Below are positions 1 to 6,357 of a stretch of 6,357 nucleotides of DNA, piece after piece (position 1 is the stretch's first letter; each line of letters opens with the position of its first letter). Source of the DNA: Bacillota bacterium (GTDB lineage: Bacteria; Bacillota_I; Bacilli_A; Acholeplasmatales; Acholeplasmataceae); the NCBI GenBank assembly GCA_023458995.1, contig JAEWVV010000067.1, forward strand, positions 1-6,357. The letters are read 5' to 3'. The notes under the pieces are model-generated. The model was not told the origin of the DNA. It searched no databases and saw only the letters and a program-made list of their open reading frames with translations. The translations under genes were made by a program, and so were the position numbers.

Positions 1-560
1 TTCCTATCGTTATCATTATCTTATTGATCGTAGCGCTTGGGTTTACATCAACTGCAGCATTTGCTTACTGGCAAGATGTATCAAGAGTAGGGAACGTCGT
101 TATCAGATTTGATGGTGAAGATGCGAATTTAATTGTTGAACAAGTATCAGATGAGTTCAATGGCAGACTAGTTCCTGAAGGATTTGTATTCTTCGAAGGT
201 GAAGTCGAAGAAGTTGTGTTTGAATATGAGGTCAGAATTGATAAAGAACTCGTTCAAACAATGAATCTCATTGTAGAAGCAATTGATGTAAAAATTGGTG
301 AAACAGATGAATATGCTCATTTAGTTGATGTTCAAGTTGGACTAGCCAAAGATAAATTCGAGTATGAGATTTTTAACAGCATTGTCACCGTAAGGGTTGT
401 TGTAAAAATACAAGAACCTATCGATTCAGCAGAAGCGATCGAAAGAGATTTAGACCCTAGTTTAGTGAATGTAGAAGATTCAGAGGCTGCATATAACTTT
501 ATTAAGGGAGAAACGATTAGTTTTAAAATCAACTTTAGTGTAACACCAAGAGAAAGTTAA
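1..560 (+). CDS. TasA/camelysin-like secreted protein with SipW-type signal peptide (5' end missing)
   Basis: The reading frame is open from the first complete codon at position 3, so the true start lies upstream. The TTG at 24 lies inside the hydrophobic core of the signal peptide and is not a credible start. The visible N-terminus is a long Ile/Leu/Val run followed by AAFAYWQD, which matches the end of a SipW-dependent signal peptide. The mature part is about 160 residues, acidic, cysteine-free and rich in alternating hydrophobic beta-strand patterns, with no second membrane segment. It shares landmarks with the next protein: LVPxGF (nt 168-185), then a Val-rich strand, a late [Q/N]EP motif, and a C-terminal strand ending in FSV. 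This makes the two paralogues. By family logic (TasA, CalY/camelysin) it is a secreted matrix or fibre subunit. Secretion and SipW dependence are well supported; fibre formation is inferred. An alternative is a minor accessory subunit, as TapA is in Bacillus. Confidence 0.75.
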   Translation, partial: PIVIIILLIVALGFTSTAAFAYWQDVSRVGNVVIRFDGEDANLIVEQVSDEFNGRLVPEGFVFFEGEVEEVVFEYEVRIDKELVQTMNLIVEAIDVKIGETDEYAHLVDVQVGLAKDKFEYEIFNSIVTVRVVVKIQEPIDSAEAIERDLDPSLVNVEDSEAAYNFIKGETISFKINFSVTPRES

Positions 561-609: not shown

Positions 610-1173
610 ATGAAAAAAAGAGGTTTAATTATTAGTGTATTAGTTATGTTAGCAGTGATTACATCAGGTTTCACATATGCATTCTGGGCAGCTGGAATTG
701 CAGCAAGTTCAAATGAAAAAACTGGTACAATTAAAGTTGGTGCCGGTGAAACTGTACAATCAGCAGTTAGTATCACAGAAGCAGTAAGTAGCCAAGGCGT
801 AAACCAAAAATTAGTGCCAGCTGGTTTTGCTGATGGCGATGAAATCACATCACTCACATTACAATTTAATGTAACCTGGACATCTGCAGATGAAAATTCA
901 GCAAATGGTGGGGATGCGAAAGGTTTAGAAAGCACATTAACTGTTGCAAAAGTATCTGCAATGGCAGGATCAACTGATGTATCAAGTTTATTTAATGTGA
1001 CAGGTACTCTATCATATTCCATTACATCTGATGCAGCTGCTCCAACATTAGTCACTGTAACAGTAACAATGAATGAACCAGGAACAATTGCACTCTATCA
1101 AGCAGTTGCTAATCAAAATGTTGTTTTAACATTATCATTTAGCGTTGCAGCTACATCAACTCCAGCAGCTTAA
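610..1173 (+). CDS. TasA/camelysin-like secreted protein, candidate major fibre subunit
   Basis: This is a complete 187-residue protein. It has a basic start (MKKR), a hydrophobic core (about residues 5-20) and the SipW-type end FTYAFWAAG (residues 21-29). The mature domain of about 160 residues is rich in Ala, Ser, Thr and Val, low in charge and free of Cys, as expected for a self-associating beta-sandwich. Shared landmarks with the upstream gene are LVPAGF (68-73), MNEP (154-157) and the final LSFSV strand. The composition is less charged than that of the acidic paralogue upstream. It sits last before a strong hairpin, an arrangement compatible with high expression of a structural subunit. 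The TasA/CalY family assignment rests on signal-peptide type, size, beta pattern and the SipW-like genes downstream; sequence identity to TasA itself cannot be shown here. It could also be a surface protein or protease-like camelysin. It is not named tasA because the specific orthology is unproven. Confidence 0.75.
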   Translation: MKKRGLIISVLVMLAVITSGFTYAFWAAGIAASSNEKTGTIKVGAGETVQSAVSITEAVSSQGVNQKLVPAGFADGDEITSLTLQFNVTWTSADENSANGGDAKGLESTLTVAKVSAMAGSTDVSSLFNVTGTLSYSITSDAAAPTLVTVTVTMNEPGTIALYQAVANQNVVLTLSFSVAATSTPAA

Positions 1174-1254: not shown

Positions 1255-2838
1255 ATGAAAACTTTATCAAGTAAATTAAAACTTTCAGTTATCATTTTTT
1301 TAGTTTTGATATCCTCTTTTTTAGTATCCTCATCATTTGCCTATTTTGCATCAGGTATTTCTGATTCGACATCTGATAAAGCAGAATTTATCTATATTGG
1401 TGAATGGGGACTTGAAGCAGGAGCACCAACAGGTATTCCTGAATTTGTGTTAGGTGCTATCTACAGTGTTGGTGATTATGTTTGGTATGAAGGTAAAATA
1501 TATCAAATCCTAAATAACGGATATACAACAACACCACCACCTTCTACTGCCACTTATGGATCATTTAATGATATTACACATATTTATGTTCCAACAAATA
1601 CTTATTCAGAAAATGATATAGTCCTTCATAACGATTCATTCTATAAAGCTCTTAACTCAGGCATTGCTAACAGCAATGAACCTGGTACGAATGGTCAAGG
1701 TTGGTTTGATATGCATTCTTTTGAATGGTCATCTGGTCAAGCGTACACAAAAGATAATGTTGTACTCTATAACAACAAATTATGGATTGCAACAGTAAAT
1801 TACTCGCTGCATCAAAATGTACCAGGTACATCATTGCATTGGAGACAGTTAGGTACAATCCAGTGGAATCCCAATGTTACATATCAACTCAATGACCATG
1901 TCATCTATAATGGAACACTCTATTATGCAGCACTCGGTCATAACTTAGATGCTACTCCAGGAACAAACGGTTCATGGCGATTAAAGGGATCTATCGATTG
2001 GAGTCCTTATGCTATTTATAATACCAATGACATTGTTAAGTATAATGGGTTGTATTATAAGGCTGGTTGGTGGACTCAAAATAACGTACCAACAAGTGGT
2101 GGACCATGGACATTAACATCAGTCAATCCTTATACAGCTGGTACGAATTATAATGTCAATGATATCGTTATCTACAACGGGAAAGTCTATAAGTCTGTAA
2201 ACCAATCGCGTTCAAGAAGTTATGCTCCAGGTACAGCATACAATGCGTGGAATCAAATTGACACTGCAGAATGGCGTTGGTTTAATGTTTATGTTGCAAC
2301 AGACCATGTGATTCATAATGGAGGTATTTATAAACCTTCAGATCTAACAAATGCAAACGCAAATGAACCAGGAACGTCTTATAATGCATGGAATAGAGTT
2401 GACACAGATACATATCAACCCTATAACAGATATACATCAAACAGCTATGTTTTCCATAACGGCAACATTTTTAAAGTTGTTAATGAAACTAACGCAAATG
2501 CGCATGAACCAGGGACATTCTATAATGCATGGAATCTAATCAATGATTCAGAATGGCATTGGTTTAATGTTTATCAGCTAAATGATTATGTCTTTTATCA
2601 AGACTTCGCATATCGTGTTGTTAACGCAAACAATGCAAATAATAACGTAATTCCCGGTAGCGTCAACAACGCATGGAACCGTGTTGGTACTCTATATTAC
2701 CAGTCCTATAATAGATATAATCAAAATGATATTGCGATTTACGAAAATGTAGCATATATTGCGCTTGCAACATCGACTAATATTACTCCAGGACAAGCAG
2801 GTTCAGAGGCTTACTGGGCACTTTATAGTAATAGCTAG
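1255..2838 (+). CDS. Secreted multi-CBM5/12-like repeat protein with SipW-type signal peptide
   Basis: This 527-residue protein starts at the ATG spaced correctly from AAGGAGG. Residues 1-29 form a signal peptide (basic MKTLSSKLK, hydrophobic core, SSSFA) followed by YFASG, the same SipW-type end as in the neighbouring secreted proteins. A short linker ending in IYIGEWG (46-52) leads into ten tandem repeats of about 44-48 residues (about 64-524). The repeat consensus is an aromatic, then Y-x3-ND-x-V-x-YNG-x-x-Y, a variable Asn-rich loop, PGT, and a Trp. This is the pattern of carbohydrate-binding modules of family 5/12 (chitin- or glucan-binding). No catalytic domain, sortase motif or C-terminal anchor is visible, so the protein appears to be a pure glycan-binding or adhesive surface component. 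It follows the TasA-like genes after an attenuator-like hairpin. Which glycan it binds cannot be read from the sequence, and several repeats (1, 2 and 10) are divergent. Confidence 0.8.
   Translation: MKTLSSKLKLSVIIFLVLISSFLVSSSFAYFASGISDSTSDKAEFIYIGEWGLEAGAPTGIPEFVLGAIYSVGDYVWYEGKIYQILNNGYTTTPPPSTATYGSFNDITHIYVPTNTYSENDIVLHNDSFYKALNSGIANSNEPGTNGQGWFDMHSFEWSSGQAYTKDNVVLYNNKLWIATVNYSLHQNVPGTSLHWRQLGTIQWNPNVTYQLNDHVIYNGTLYYAALGHNLDATPGTNGSWRLKGSIDWSPYAIYNTNDIVKYNGLYYKAGWWTQNNVPTSGGPWTLTSVNPYTAGTNYNVNDIVIYNGKVYKSVNQSRSRSYAPGTAYNAWNQIDTAEWRWFNVYVATDHVIHNGGIYKPSDLTNANANEPGTSYNAWNRVDTDTYQPYNRYTSNSYVFHNGNIFKVVNETNANAHEPGTFYNAWNLINDSEWHWFNVYQLNDYVFYQDFAYRVVNANNANNNVIPGSVNNAWNRVGTLYYQSYNRYNQNDIAIYENVAYIALATSTNITPGQAGSEAYWALYSNS
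1444..2826 (+). repeat. Ten tandem protein repeats of 44-48 codons (CBM5/12-like)
   Basis: The [N/G]D-x-V core recurs at about residues 74, 121, 167, 214, 259, 303, 350, 397, 444 and 492 of the encoded protein. Early repeats differ strongly from each other, while repeats 7-10 stay recognisably similar at DNA level. For example, the 24-nt stretches at 2269-2292 and 2551-2574 differ by one base and lie exactly 282 nt (two 141-nt units) apart. Confidence 0.85.
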
Positions 2839-2923: not shown

Positions 2924-3487
2924 GTGGAAACGAAAACTAAGAAAGCATTAAGTTTAGCCGGGTCAATCGTCTTTTTTGCACTAGCAGGATTGTTGATTCT
3001 CTATATTTTACTTGAACTCTTTTTACCAAATATGACAATCAAAGTGTTCCAGTTTAAACCGTATGTCGTCGTTACTGAAAGTATGGAACCTGTGATTGAT
3101 GTCGATGATTTAATTATCGTAACCAATCCTAATGTTGATAAGTTAAATCCAGGTGACATCATTACCTTTAGAGCAGATATCGATTATAACGGAACAAAAG
3201 AAGTTGTCACTCACTATATCAATTCCATTACAGAAACAGAAGATGGATATAGAATTAGAACCAATCGATATGGCAGCACAGTTCCAGATACATGGATTTT
3301 ATCAGGTGATGATGTTATTGGTGTCTATCAATTTCGTGTTAGACAACTCGGTGTCTTCGTTAACTTTATTAAGAGCCCTTTTGGTATCGCAGCGGTTGCT
3401 GTTAACGTGATAATCATTGGTGCTATTGTTTATATCGTTAAATCTGGTAAAAAGGAAAAAAAAGAAGAACAAAAACCAGAAGCTTAG
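2924..3487 (+). CDS. SipW-like (ER-type) signal peptidase I, catalytic residues present
   Basis: This 187-residue membrane protein with a GTG start probably cleaves the signal peptides of the TasA-like and repeat proteins at the outer face of the membrane. A first membrane segment spans about residues 9-34. The catalytic box TESMEP follows with nucleophile Ser53, then DDLIIV, NPGDIITF (75-82) and THYI with His97. His in place of the usual bacterial Lys is the hallmark of the archaeal/ER/SipW class. PDTW (Asp122) and GDDVIG (Asp129/130) match the later conserved Asp-containing boxes. A second membrane segment (about 153-172) precedes a Lys/Glu-rich cytoplasmic tail. The overall topology matches SipW. 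The gene sits behind its own likely promoter and is followed 12 nt later by a degenerate paralogue. Two more family members occur here, so it is not called sipW outright. Confidence 0.88.
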   Translation: METKTKKALSLAGSIVFFALAGLLILYILLELFLPNMTIKVFQFKPYVVVTESMEPVIDVDDLIIVTNPNVDKLNPGDIITFRADIDYNGTKEVVTHYINSITETEDGYRIRTNRYGSTVPDTWILSGDDVIGVYQFRVRQLGVFVNFIKSPFGIAAVAVNVIIIGAIVYIVKSGKKEKKEEQKPEA

Positions 3488-3499
3488 GACGTGATTTGA

Positions 3500-4117
3500 T
3501 TGAATGAATTTCTTACAACTGAGCAACTTGTCCTAAAACTGCAATTACAGCAGAATAAACCAATAGCTGAAATTAATAATGAGAAAAAAGTAGTAAGTCA
3601 TAACAAAAGATCAAAAATCAGTAAAATCATTTACTGGATTATTGTTGGATTAATGGCTATATACATGGTATTCTCAATTATACCAATCGTATTCAAAGAT
3701 CGTGCAGTTAACATTCTAGGGTTAACGACGATGCTTGCAGTTCCTAATGATCAAGAACTTGATGAAGAGTTAACATCGGATGTGATCTATGTTAGAAAAT
3801 TCAAGTTTGAAGACGTGAATATAGGGGACCGCATTGTTATCTTTGGAAAGTTTGGTACAGATTTGTATTGGGTTGAAGAAGTAGTTGCAATTGATGAAGT
3901 CAACAGAACACTCGATACAACATTTGGATATTTTGTCAAAAATACATATCAAGAAGATGAAATAAGAGCAACCTTCAGTCACCATGCAAATAACCTTTCT
4001 ACCGTCTTTTATGTATCGACGACACCTAGAGGTTTCCTATCACTTTTCTTCATTGAAGTATTGATTATGGGAATAATCTATTACTATTTTATCCGAAAAC
4101 CCAAAGAAAAAAAGTGA
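3500..4117 (+). CDS. Degenerate SipW-like signal peptidase paralogue, probably catalytically inactive
   Basis: This 205-residue protein starts at TTG (3500). An in-frame TGA directly precedes that codon, the next in-frame ATG would cut into the first membrane segment, and AGGA (3486-3489), overlapping the previous stop codon, is 10 nt upstream. It has a polar N-terminal extension of about 40 residues, a membrane segment (about 42-65), an extracytoplasmic domain and a second membrane segment (about 178-197) ending in RKPKEKK, close to the tail of the third peptidase. The domain aligns with its neighbours at SDVIYV (93-98) and NIGDRIVIF (107-115). Where they have SMEP it reads around DQELDE, with no Ser, and where they have THYI it reads around WVEEVV, with no His. 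It is therefore likely a pseudoenzyme. It could be a partner subunit or substrate-presenting factor, or a relic under weak constraint. The frame is intact, which argues against recent decay. Confidence 0.72.
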   Translation: MNEFLTTEQLVLKLQLQQNKPIAEINNEKKVVSHNKRSKISKIIYWIIVGLMAIYMVFSIIPIVFKDRAVNILGLTTMLAVPNDQELDEELTSDVIYVRKFKFEDVNIGDRIVIFGKFGTDLYWVEEVVAIDEVNRTLDTTFGYFVKNTYQEDEIRATFSHHANNLSTVFYVSTTPRGFLSLFFIEVLIMGIIYYYFIRKPKEKK

Positions 4118-4145
4118 ACCTTCTCTGTTAAGAAAAGGTTCTTTT
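4116..4145 (+). terminator. Rho-independent terminator overlapping the stop codon of the inactive paralogue
   Basis: GAACCTT (4116-4122) pairs with AAGGTTC (4135-4141). After one mismatch, TCT (4124-4126) pairs with AGA (4131-4133) around a GTTA loop. TTTTA follows, the run of T being 4142-4145 after the closing C. The stem is AT-rich, so strength is moderate. It lies just 13 nt ahead of the next gene. Confidence 0.65.
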
Positions 4146-4148
4146 ATT

Positions 4149-4154
4149 AGGTGA
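4149..4154 (+). promoter_or_regulatory. Ribosome binding site with ambiguous start for the third peptidase gene
   Basis: AGGTGA directly abuts the ATG at 4155 and lies 3 nt before the ATG at 4158. Two further in-frame ATG codons occur at 4170 and 4173. The spacing best suits 4158, but the N-terminus could differ by up to six residues without affecting the first membrane segment. Confidence 0.5.
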
Positions 4155-4775
4155 ATGATGACTAAACATATGATGAAAAAAATTGGAAATATTATCTTTT
4201 ATATCTTCGCATCAATTCTTTTGATGTTTATTGTTTTGGAGATCATTTTACCTTCAAAAACAATGGATATTCTTGGTTTCAAAGGTTTTGTTGTTGTTTC
4301 ACCCTCGATGGAACCAGAAATCAAAGTAAATGATTTAGTGATTGTAACAAAGATAGAAGAAGAGAATTTAAGTGTTGGAGAAATCATCACTTTTTATACG
4401 TATTTACCAACAGTAAAACTTGATCATGAAGGTAATACGATCTATAAGAGGAGTAAGGTTACGCATTATATTGCAGATTTCTATCATGAAGACGGAAAAA
4501 TCATCATTAAAACGAAAGATTACAGGAAATATCATAACGATGGTAGTTTTGATACATGGAATGATTCAAACGGAGATCCAGTTGAAATCACGTATGATGA
4601 TGTCATTGGTAAAGTCTCATTTAAAGTACCAATGGTTGGATCAATTATCACATTTGGTATGGTTCTTGTACAAAACCCTATCTTTTTAGGACTTATCGTT
4701 TTAAATATAGCGATTATTGTCATTTTGATTAAATATTTAAAGAAACCAAAGGAGAAACCTCATGACGTGGGATGA
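4155..4775 (+). CDS. Second SipW-like (ER-type) signal peptidase I with catalytic residues
   Basis: This is a protein of up to 206 residues, predicted to act at the membrane on SipW-type signal peptides. Residues 11-32 form the first membrane segment. GFVVVSPSMEP contains nucleophile Ser51. DLVIV, LSVGEIITF (72-80) and VTHYI with His104 follow. FDTW (Asp133) and YDDVIGK (Asp148/149) match the later boxes, and a second membrane segment covers about 172-194. It resembles the first peptidase closely but has a longer insert (about residues 81-100, and again 121-145), so substrate preference may differ. It overlaps the start of ung by 14 nt, implying translational coupling. A terminator lies just upstream, so its transcription depends on read-through or on an unrecognised promoter inside the preceding gene. 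Confidence 0.88.
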   Translation: MMTKHMMKKIGNIIFYIFASILLMFIVLEIILPSKTMDILGFKGFVVVSPSMEPEIKVNDLVIVTKIEEENLSVGEIITFYTYLPTVKLDHEGNTIYKRSKVTHYIADFYHEDGKIIIKTKDYRKYHNDGSFDTWNDSNGDPVEITYDDVIGKVSFKVPMVGSIITFGMVLVQNPIFLGLIVLNIAIIVILIKYLKKPKEKPHDVG

Positions 4776-5412
4776 ACTTATTAAAATTGAATTAGCGAAA
4801 CCCTATTTTCAATCACTTGTTACATTCCTTAAAGATGAAGATCATAAGCATCTTGTGCTACCTCCAAAAGATAAAAGACTTTCATGTTTTAAATTAACAC
4901 CCTATGAAGATGTTAAGGTTGTCATTATCGGTCAAGACCCATATCATAATCTTGGTCAAGCTCATGGTTTGGCTTTTTCTGTTGAACAAGGGGATTATCC
5001 ACCTTCACTAAAGAATATCTACCAAGAACTTGTAAGTGACCTAAAAATAGATTATCCAAAAACAGGTAATCTTACCGAATGGGCAAAACAAGGCGTATTA
5101 CTACTTAATACAGTATTAACCGTCGTTGCTCATCAACCGATGAGTCATCAAAAAAGAGGATGGGAAGAATTCACGTTAGAAATTGTTAAGGCTTTAAACA
5201 ATAAAGAACATCCAATCGTATTTATCTTGTGGGGAGCACATGCACAAAAGTTTATACCATTTATTGATACACATAAACATTTGATCATCAAAGCACCACA
5301 TCCATCTCCATTATCAGCACATCGCGGATTTTTTGGATCAAAACCATTTTCTAAAACAAACGCGTTTTTAAAAGATCATCATCTTCATGAGATTGATTGG
5401 TCATTAAATTAA
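4762..5412 (+). CDS. ung: Uracil-DNA glycosylase, family 1
   Basis: This enzyme removes uracil from DNA, produced by cytosine deamination or dUTP incorporation, and so starts base-excision repair in the cytoplasm. It is complete at 216 residues, about normal for the family. The water-activating motif GQDPYH is at residues 57-62 (catalytic Asp59), with Tyr61 and Phe72 in the uracil pocket. LLLNTVLTV (113-121) carries the uracil-recognising Asn116. HPSPLSAHRGFFG (180-192) supplies His180 and the minor-groove loop. GGAG, 7 nt before the ATG at 4762, supports the start. The gene overlaps the preceding signal peptidase gene and is followed 35 nt later by a secreted repeat protein. It has no functional link to secretion, so it is either a resident housekeeping gene around which the surface cluster assembled or it simply shares the transcript. 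No terminator is visible after it. Confidence 0.97.
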   Translation: MTWDELIKIELAKPYFQSLVTFLKDEDHKHLVLPPKDKRLSCFKLTPYEDVKVVIIGQDPYHNLGQAHGLAFSVEQGDYPPSLKNIYQELVSDLKIDYPKTGNLTEWAKQGVLLLNTVLTVVAHQPMSHQKRGWEEFTLEIVKALNNKEHPIVFILWGAHAQKFIPFIDTHKHLIIKAPHPSPLSAHRGFFGSKPFSKTNAFLKDHHLHEIDWSLN

Positions 5413-5434: not shown

Positions 5435-5441
5435 AGGAGGG
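5435..5441 (+). promoter_or_regulatory. Strong ribosome binding site pointing to a CTG start
   Basis: AGGAGGG lies 6 nt before a CTG at 5448. An in-frame TAA at 5442-5444 rules out any start further upstream. The next permissible start, TTG at 5463, is 21 nt from this site. Confidence 0.7.
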
Positions 5442-5447
5442 TAAACT

Positions 5448-6357
5448 CTGAAAAAAAGAAAATTGATCGTTGAGATCTTGTTAACAATCCTTGTTGTATC
5501 TAACATTTCTTTTTCATTTGCTTATTGGGCAAATCAAGTTTACGGAACTCATAACACTGGTGATGGAGCCATCATAATCGGTGATTGGCCTCATATTCCT
5601 GATGATGCAAACGCAGGTATCGGTAATGAACCTGGAGAAAATGTCATCACTTTGGACATGATTGGTTCAGAAGAATATCCAGAATATCCGATTGATGGAG
5701 ACTATGTTATAGTTGAAGATATCATCATTGATGATACGTTTGTTCCTCAGGAAAACTTTACAGGAACTCTTGATGGACAAGGGAATACTGTCATCTATGA
5801 TCTGAGTACAGAAAATCAAGATAATGTAGGAATATTCAATAATAATGAAGGTACGATTAAAAATCTTACGGTTACCGATGGTTCTTTAGAAACAACTTCT
5901 GATGTTGGAAGTCAAACAGCAGGTTTTGTTGTGGGTACTAATTACGGAATCATAGAAAATGTGTTCATAGATAACGGTGTAATCAACGTTGATGTGAATG
6001 TGAATAGTTCACAAGACCAATTTATTAAAGTTGGTGCCATTGCTGGTGTAAATTATGGTACGATTCGAAATTCAAGTGCTGATGTCACTATTTATGCGAC
6101 TATTACAGCATCTGGATCAGGTTATGCAGCGATTGACTCTGGTGGTTTGGTTGCTGAAAACCATGGTCTAATTGAAAACAGTCATACATCAGGTGATTTT
6201 TATGCGACCAACGCATATAACGGAACAAGTAATAACTACTTTGCGTTAGGTGGATTAGTCGGGGTTATTATCGGTGTATCAACTGCTCAACTCGTGAATG
6301 TTTCATCATCGATGAACATTCATGCAACAATCAGTGGAACAAACACTGCACCAGCAC
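5448..6357 (+). CDS. Secreted GLUG-repeat beta-helix protein with SipW-type signal peptide (3' end missing)
   Basis: The frame stays open from 5448 to the window end, giving 303 codons so far. The start appears to be CTG, because it alone fits the strong ribosome binding site and gives the basic KKRK segment a signal peptide needs. The hydrophobic core (about 6-22) ends in FSFAYWANQ, the same SipW-type end as the other secreted proteins here. GAIIIGDWP (40-48) resembles the segment at the same place in the CBM-repeat protein. FTGTLDGQGNTV (104-115) is the classic lead-in to GLUG motifs. At least five GLUG-like units of the form GGLVGxNxGxIxNS follow (about 127-145, 158-177, 195-214, 231-250, 267-288). 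Such repeats build beta-helices in surface adhesins and M26-type proteases. No catalytic domain is visible in the part present. Binding target and anchoring are unknown. Confidence 0.8.
   Translation, partial: MKKRKLIVEILLTILVVSNISFSFAYWANQVYGTHNTGDGAIIIGDWPHIPDDANAGIGNEPGENVITLDMIGSEEYPEYPIDGDYVIVEDIIIDDTFVPQENFTGTLDGQGNTVIYDLSTENQDNVGIFNNNEGTIKNLTVTDGSLETTSDVGSQTAGFVVGTNYGIIENVFIDNGVINVDVNVNSSQDQFIKVGAIAGVNYGTIRNSSADVTIYATITASGSGYAAIDSGGLVAENHGLIENSHTSGDFYATNAYNGTSNNYFALGGLVGVIIGVSTAQLVNVSSSMNIHATISGTNTAPA
5826..6311 (+). repeat. Five GLUG-like motif repeats
   Basis: The encoded units read VGIFNNNEGTIKNL, AGFVVGTNYGIIEN, VGAIAGVNYGTIRNS, GGLVAENHGLIENS and a weaker GGLVGVIIG unit. They are spaced about 31-37 residues apart. 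The Gly/Asn positions are conserved while the strands between them vary. Confidence 0.8.

Follow-up and report, generated by a model that had tools for sequence, protein, structure and literature searches.

Why should a bacterium keep, between the genes of two signal peptidases, a third relative that lacks their catalytic residues? The question is raised by a stretch of 6,357 nucleotides from an Acholeplasmataceae bacterium (contig JAEWVV010000067.1, hereafter the window), in which genes A and C encode SipW-type signal peptidases and the gene between them, B, encodes a protein with neither Ser nor His at the aligned catalytic places. We found B in 44 other genomes, under purifying selection and tied to SipW-type peptidases, as the sequence-only reading of this locus had expected of a retained protein. 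We think it somewhat probable that B is a non-catalytic, client-binding partner of the peptidases encoded beside it.

Both A and C pass the cut-off (51.85 bits) of the NCBIfam model TIGR02228 and are, by their sequences, signal peptidases I of the endoplasmic reticulum (ER) type, i.e., the SipW class. The catalytic pair consists of Ser53 (codon 3080-3082) and His97 (3212-3214) in A and of Ser51 (codon 4305-4307) and His104 (4464-4466) in C; the predicted model of A has a predicted local distance difference test score (pLDDT) of 31-47 around the Ser loop. We aligned 78 proteins jointly—26 A, 26 B, and 26 C, from the window and 25 genomes of its order. Both catalytic residues are present in 26/26 C and in 18/26 A; in B, Ser is missing from its column in 26/26 proteins and His in 26/26. 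A second alignment mode agrees for the Ser columns and again places no His in B. The earlier claims that A and C keep the pair and that the middle protein lacks it are therefore both borne out, the latter with 0/26 B having either residue.

The place of the Ser is taken in B by Asp (10 of the 26 proteins), Asn (8), Thr (6), Val (1), or Lys (1), and the site of the catalytic His reads Tyr-Trp in most of them. When the search is extended to all 45 B that we identified (the window, 25 genomes of its order, and 19 more genomes, from at least three orders), none has a His within three residues of the aligned site and none has both Ser and His. A Ser stands at the site in a single protein (G377), within one residue of it in three (adding G336 and G511), and within three residues in ten. 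Among 33 database proteins, two have a His in the column of Tyr123, neither of which has a Ser at or next to the site. Other positions are well kept: Gln85 in 40/45 B (and in 51/59 alignment rows) and Trp124 in 39/45.

B is so diverged that no S26 model in NCBIfam or Pfam recognises the window protein, and TIGR02228 is matched by just one of the 26 B, with a best E value of 0.0078; no model of either database covers the family yet. Profile-profile comparison (hhalign) nevertheless gives 97.6% for B against C and 97.0% for B against A, the reversed profiles giving 4.6% and 2.9%. After removal of the membrane segments, the match to C persists (95.9%, reversed 7.2%), while that to A falls to 42.3% (reversed 0.3%). 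The B profile also finds an intact S26 peptidase, in G169, at 1.8e-12. These comparisons, with their reversed controls and the S26 match, rule out a chance likeness between proteins that merely share two membrane segments, and on profile evidence B is a diverged homologue within the S24/S26 (LexA/signal peptidase-like) superfamily. In a sequence search of the PDB, the profile matched a coiled-coil-type entry (8qag, 9.1e-5, positions 7-73) and gave two further matches above 0.3.

The two membrane segments seen at first reading were confirmed (residues 39-67 and 175-199), and the predicted topology places both termini of B in the cytosol. The polar N-terminus, first described as an extra stretch of about 40 residues, is indeed longer than in its neighbours (about 38 residues before the first segment, versus 6-7 in A and C), but the extra part amounts to about 30. 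In the window's order it carries the motif (F/Y/L)(L/M)(T/S)T(D/E/N)(E/Q)L, as read from the alignment of 26 B.

B is widespread and keeps its company. It occurs in 25 of the 88 genomes of the family of G002 (E values of 2.1e-25 or better); the 160 genomes of the order yield the same 25, together with a partial B at the edge of a contig (G037) and a divergent one (G005), both left out of the 45. A second order (90 genomes) contributes 18 additional B at 1e-10 or better, and a sample of 395 genomes of the class one more, in G217, which belongs to neither order. The order A-B-C-ung, where ung encodes uracil-DNA glycosylase, is found in 25/25 of the first set. Among the 19 additional genomes, A-B-C is found in 11 (part of the L089 locus being masked), A-B without an adjacent C in three (G272, G515, and G516), A-B at a contig end in G509, B-C with no A in two (G336 and G511), and B alone in two (G228 and G502, the gene of the latter being cut by the contig end). 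Overall, 37/45 loci have A-B-C in order and a peptidase bearing Ser and His adjoins B in 43/45. The first description of B as flanked by A and C is thus accurate for the 37; it does not extend to the loci lacking C beside B (three) or A (two), nor to the two where B lies apart from A-C.

Weak profile matches were not counted as B. In the order these were G007, G014, G079-G081, G089, G098, G150, G151, and G158, of which only G079, G080, G081, and G089 were inspected. In the class sample, inspection covered G169, G445, G471, G210, and G298, which have intact or other S26 proteins; the other weak matches were in G234, G260, G304, G371, G409, G417, G429, G447, G452, and G486. G169 also encodes an S26-like protein without the Ser box (L096:3009-3554; B profile match 1.3e-7), two genes before its intact S26 peptidase. 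The divergent protein of G005 (E value 1.2e-18) has no Ser and has a His near the site; it lies away from ung (L077/L126), beside a TasA-like gene and an A-like protein that lacks Ser and His, with no C. A search of genome contigs with the window's B alone retrieved no relative, and one with the alignment retrieved three loci. At the search sensitivity used, neither viral contigs nor phage records yielded a B.

The frames of B are open in 25/25 genomes of the window's order, which rules out an annotation or frameshift artefact. Ratios of nonsynonymous to synonymous substitution rates (dN/dS, Nei-Gojobori method) in 11 close pairs range from 0.052 to 0.198 for B, 0.039 to 0.125 for A, and 0.047 to 0.140 for C (10 pairs, one being saturated); they are rough values because dS is often near or above 1. 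B diverges faster than its neighbours: between the window and L004, identity is 81% for A, 80% for ung, 62% for C, and 56% for B. From these patterns, B is under purifying selection rather than in local decay. Instead of the random truncation or absence from the locus that would mark a dying gene, its homologues have open frames and keep their place.

C is constant, and A is not. Both catalytic residues of C are present in 39/39 loci, other orders included (13/13 in the additional genomes), and we saw no loss; its Ser, Met, Pro, and His are invariant in the 26 aligned proteins. In A, both are present in 33/41 loci (15/15 in the additional genomes) and both are lost in the other eight, each time beside an intact C. 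The picture of B between two active copies therefore fits the window and is not general. The eight changed A (L024-L031) have Thr (seven) or Gln (one) for Ser and Tyr (seven) or Ala (one) for His; the motif reads YDTMEP in six. Judging from the residues, Thr may act as nucleophile in seven of them, yet the His is gone too. In the A tree, all eight cluster together (100/100) on long branches; the ung tree requires two changes, so A suffered one or two losses.

Some B are joined to other proteins. A metagenomic protein of 361 residues, P0146 (single contig, source ENA), has an A with both Ser and His joined to a B in one frame; in the window, A and B are in the same frame with stop codons between them. 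An N-terminal HTH_3 domain (helix-turn-helix, HTH) is fused to B in G228, G502, and G521, and a C-terminal HU domain in G377; the other 40 of the 44 B scanned (all but that of G453) have no recognised DNA-binding domain. The fused gene lies within the A-B-C cluster in G521 and G377. In G228 and G502, HTH-B is encoded elsewhere; at the client locus of these two genomes, A and C adjoin without an intervening B. The fusions agree with the predicted topology of B, in which both tails face the cytosol. They are the strongest hint to function, namely that B links clients outside with the inside, and they indicate a sensing role as much as a structural one.

The candidate clients are encoded upstream. 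In the window, all genes are on one strand—three secreted-protein genes, A, B, C, ung, and a fourth secreted protein—and the signal peptides of the three upstream proteins end in an aromatic pair (Table 1). The product of the first gene reaches 13.1 bits with TIGR04088 (cognate_SipW), under the cut-off of 19; small genes resembling the second were found by eye upstream of A in other loci. Among 25 loci, the gene before A encodes repeats of carbohydrate-binding module (CBM) type in 17 (by a loose pattern) and a TasA-like protein in six (by eye); two loci start too late. We scanned 18 stretches for RNA families, 13 of which hold the 5' part of a client cluster. A riboswitch of the cyclic di-GMP (c-di-GMP)-I family lies shortly before a client gene, on the strand of the cluster, in 13/13 of them, and L088 has three. 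The other five stretches lack this part: L001, L003, and L119 start too late, L084 holds a stand-alone HTH-B, and the window begins inside its first client gene, which is why its own leader is not seen. Given the riboswitches and the types of client, the cluster likely serves c-di-GMP-controlled surface-matrix secretion.

Table 1. Coordinates of features in the window and of riboswitches before client genes at other loci
Feature	Position	Strand	Basis
Secreted protein, 5'-truncated, signal peptide end AFAYW (SipW-type), TasA/TapA-like candidate client	3..560	+	Open reading frame (ORF), open
Small secreted TasA-like candidate client, signal peptide end TYAFW	610..1173	+	ORF
Secreted protein with six CBM5/12-type stretches, signal peptide end SFAYF	1255..2838	+	PF02839, 105.6 bits
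Gene A, SipW/ER-type signal peptidase, 187 residues, GTG start	2924..3487	+	TIGR02228 63.2 bits, PF10502 29.3 bits, alignment
Gene B, S26-like pseudo-peptidase without Ser/His pair, 205 residues, TTG start	3500..4117	+	ORF, alignments, profiles
B N-terminus, residues 1-38, polar, predicted cytosolic	3500..3613	+	Alignment of 26 B
B pseudo-active site PNDQ, residues 82-85, replaces Ser box	3743..3754	+	Joint alignment
B Tyr123-Trp124, replaces catalytic His strand (THYI)	3866..3871	+	Alignment, 45 B
Gene C, SipW/ER-type signal peptidase, 206 residues, ATG start	4155..4775	+	TIGR02228 52.2 bits
ung, uracil-DNA glycosylase, overlapping end of C	4762..5412	+	NCBIfam 307.5 bits
Secreted protein, signal peptide end SFAYW, GLUG motif, 3' end beyond window	5448..6356	+	PF07581, ORF
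c-di-GMP-I riboswitch	L002:4157-4231, L082:853-930, L085:611-684, L090:704-777, L122:537-610, L128:113-190	+	RNA-family scan
c-di-GMP-I riboswitch	L083, L086, L087, L088, L118, L120, L127	- (cluster's strand)	RNA-family scan

The relation of B to S26, the absence of the pair over 45 loci, the purifying selection, the fixed neighbourhood, the constancy of C, and the DNA-binding fusions are directly supported. That B is in addition a partner of the peptidases is suggested by the linkage and fusion of the genes, an indirect sign of a multi-subunit complex: adjacency in 43 of 45 loci and one A-B fusion protein. Correlation of rates adds little to the mechanism. As such a partner, B would be held in the membrane, its two tails lying in the cytosol and its pseudo-active domain on the outer side. 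There it would use the groove in which its intact relatives cut to bind TasA-like and CBM-repeat clients, by their signal peptides or by early parts of the mature chain. It would stabilise or select these clients without cleaving them and hand them to C (or A), and C, as well as A where intact, would cleave them. The cytosolic tail of B, short in most lineages and itself a DNA-binding domain in four genomes, would report the client load. A fuller version is tentative, and we would not call it probable: a heteromer of paralogues at c-di-GMP-controlled matrix loci, with C as the constant catalyst, A being switched off in some lineages, and an old, dead B reading signal peptides outside and relaying the secretion load to the cell interior, where in some lineages its own HTH or HU domain would act on DNA directly.

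The rival that fares best, even if we judge it unlikely, makes B a free-standing membrane sensor and transcriptional regulator derived from a signal peptidase, which would read unprocessed clients and act on DNA or an adaptor without being a peptidase subunit. The HTH_3 and HU fusions favour it, as does the separate location of HTH-B in the two genomes where A and C adjoin without it; B. subtilis SipW is also reported, as far as the account in PMC4238804 goes, to have a second role in surface-adhered biofilms. However, the 40 B without a recognised DNA-binding domain are hard to accommodate, and the A-B fusion and the gene adjacency favour a link at the level of proteins. Moreover, in G228 and G502 a simple word search returned no operator convincingly shared by the HTH-B promoter and the client locus. 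One near-match word in each genome, between the HTH-B promoter and the leader of the client locus, was judged to be chance.

Less likely still, B could help secreted fibre proteins to assemble, as a chaperone at work alongside or following cleavage; a role of this kind has been proposed for streptococcal SipA with pili. B does not follow one type of client, as it tracks the peptidases before CBM-type and TasA-like genes alike, and its second membrane segment and DNA-binding fusions also argue against such a role. It is very improbable that B is an active hydrolase with another nucleophile or base at the same site (e.g., Asp/Thr84, Gln85, or Glu126): the site is conserved and six of 26 B have Thr in the Ser column, but that column is mixed, and neither His nor any other base is invariant in the His column. 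To a decaying relic of a third peptidase gene we give practically no credence since, for all its missing pair and faster divergence, B has open frames in 25/25 genomes, dN/dS of 0.05-0.20, and conservation across orders, which already contradict decay.

The surroundings of ung bear on the origin of the cluster. It is present in 19 of the 22 genomes searched that have no full-length B. In nine of these, a single peptidase with Ser and His precedes it, in the position that C occupies elsewhere. Another of the 19, G037, belongs to the B genomes, and the remaining nine have no peptidase directly upstream. From this lone peptidase at its place, C looks like the older resident and A-B like an addition there. 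In other orders, A-B-C lies away from ung, which adjoins C only in the window's order, so the trio is not tied to it.

Some further features were observed. A terminator-like hairpin lies between B and C (window 4116-4141; 11 pairs; -11.5 kcal/mol and z -2.42 when folded as plus-strand RNA; its T-rich tail is on the minus strand), so that C may be partly uncoupled from A-B. The secreted protein 3' of ung has an apparent CTG start at 5448 behind AGGAGG (5435-5465), the ORF list giving TTG at 5463. Just downstream of ung, a tetrahydrofolate (THF) riboswitch is found at L001:3336-3427, L002:8388-8479, and L003:2494-2585. It precedes the gene of a small membrane protein, which we take to be folate-transporter-like, in L001 and L003; in L002 the contig ends.

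A close known counterpart of this system is in Bacillus. SipW of B. subtilis, encoded in tapA-sipW-tasA, belongs to the same ER-type class (TIGR02228) as A and C and has a matrix context likewise. TasA, its client, is described as having Phe at P2' and being poorly cut by LepB (PMC10269814); the genes adjoining A and C similarly have signal peptides ending before aromatic residues. The tapA-sipW-tasA operon has one peptidase, whereas here there are two and a pseudo-copy. SipW is reported, within the scope of that source, as one bifunctional protein (PMC4238804); here, a separate dead copy may carry a second role.

Other dead homologues are known. In Streptococcus pyogenes, SipA has a signal-peptidase fold with Asp48 and Gly85 for Ser and Lys and is described as inactive and essential for pilus polymerisation (PMC4049620, in the part concerned with SipA). 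B does not share this signature, having a mixed Ser column and mostly Tyr-Trp at the base site. It also differs from SipA in being nearest to Ser-His peptidases, in keeping Gln and Trp, in its second membrane segment, and in its usual place between two peptidase genes. In Staphylococcus aureus, spsA and spsB are adjacent, and we know of no client genes or DNA-binding fusions beside spsA. There, as here, one organism has both an active type I signal peptidase homologue, SpsB, and an inactive one; SpsA is stated to lack two catalytic residues and to be dispensable (PMC12445088). In other protease families, iRhoms and further pseudoproteases, dead homologues as well, are presented as handling clients or as regulators of their active relatives (PMC6451368, PMC10211241).

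In the eukaryotic signal peptidase complex, the catalytic SEC11 is described as joined by other membrane subunits, SPCS1-3 (PMC13385932, in its general account). Here, by contrast, B is an S26 paralogue of the catalyst, and any complex is putative. To our knowledge, SPCS1-3 are not S26 homologues. The C profile matches SEC11C at 6.5e-12. A literature search, with most subscription journals outside its reach, returned no recognisable report of a pseudo-peptidase beside SipW, and bacterial signal peptidases are, as far as we know, treated as single-subunit enzymes. Dead members were so far known singly, as in SipA and SpsA. At this locus, the dead paralogue stays with its intact relatives in several orders, is joined to a DNA-binding domain in four genomes, and has a neighbour, A, from which the same residues have disappeared in one group. 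The question, which involves three small genes, is open to test. Should B prove to be a subunit or a sensor, secretion at the membrane would be linked directly to gene control, and the locus would parallel in bacteria the way in which the eukaryotic signal peptidase complex was built up.
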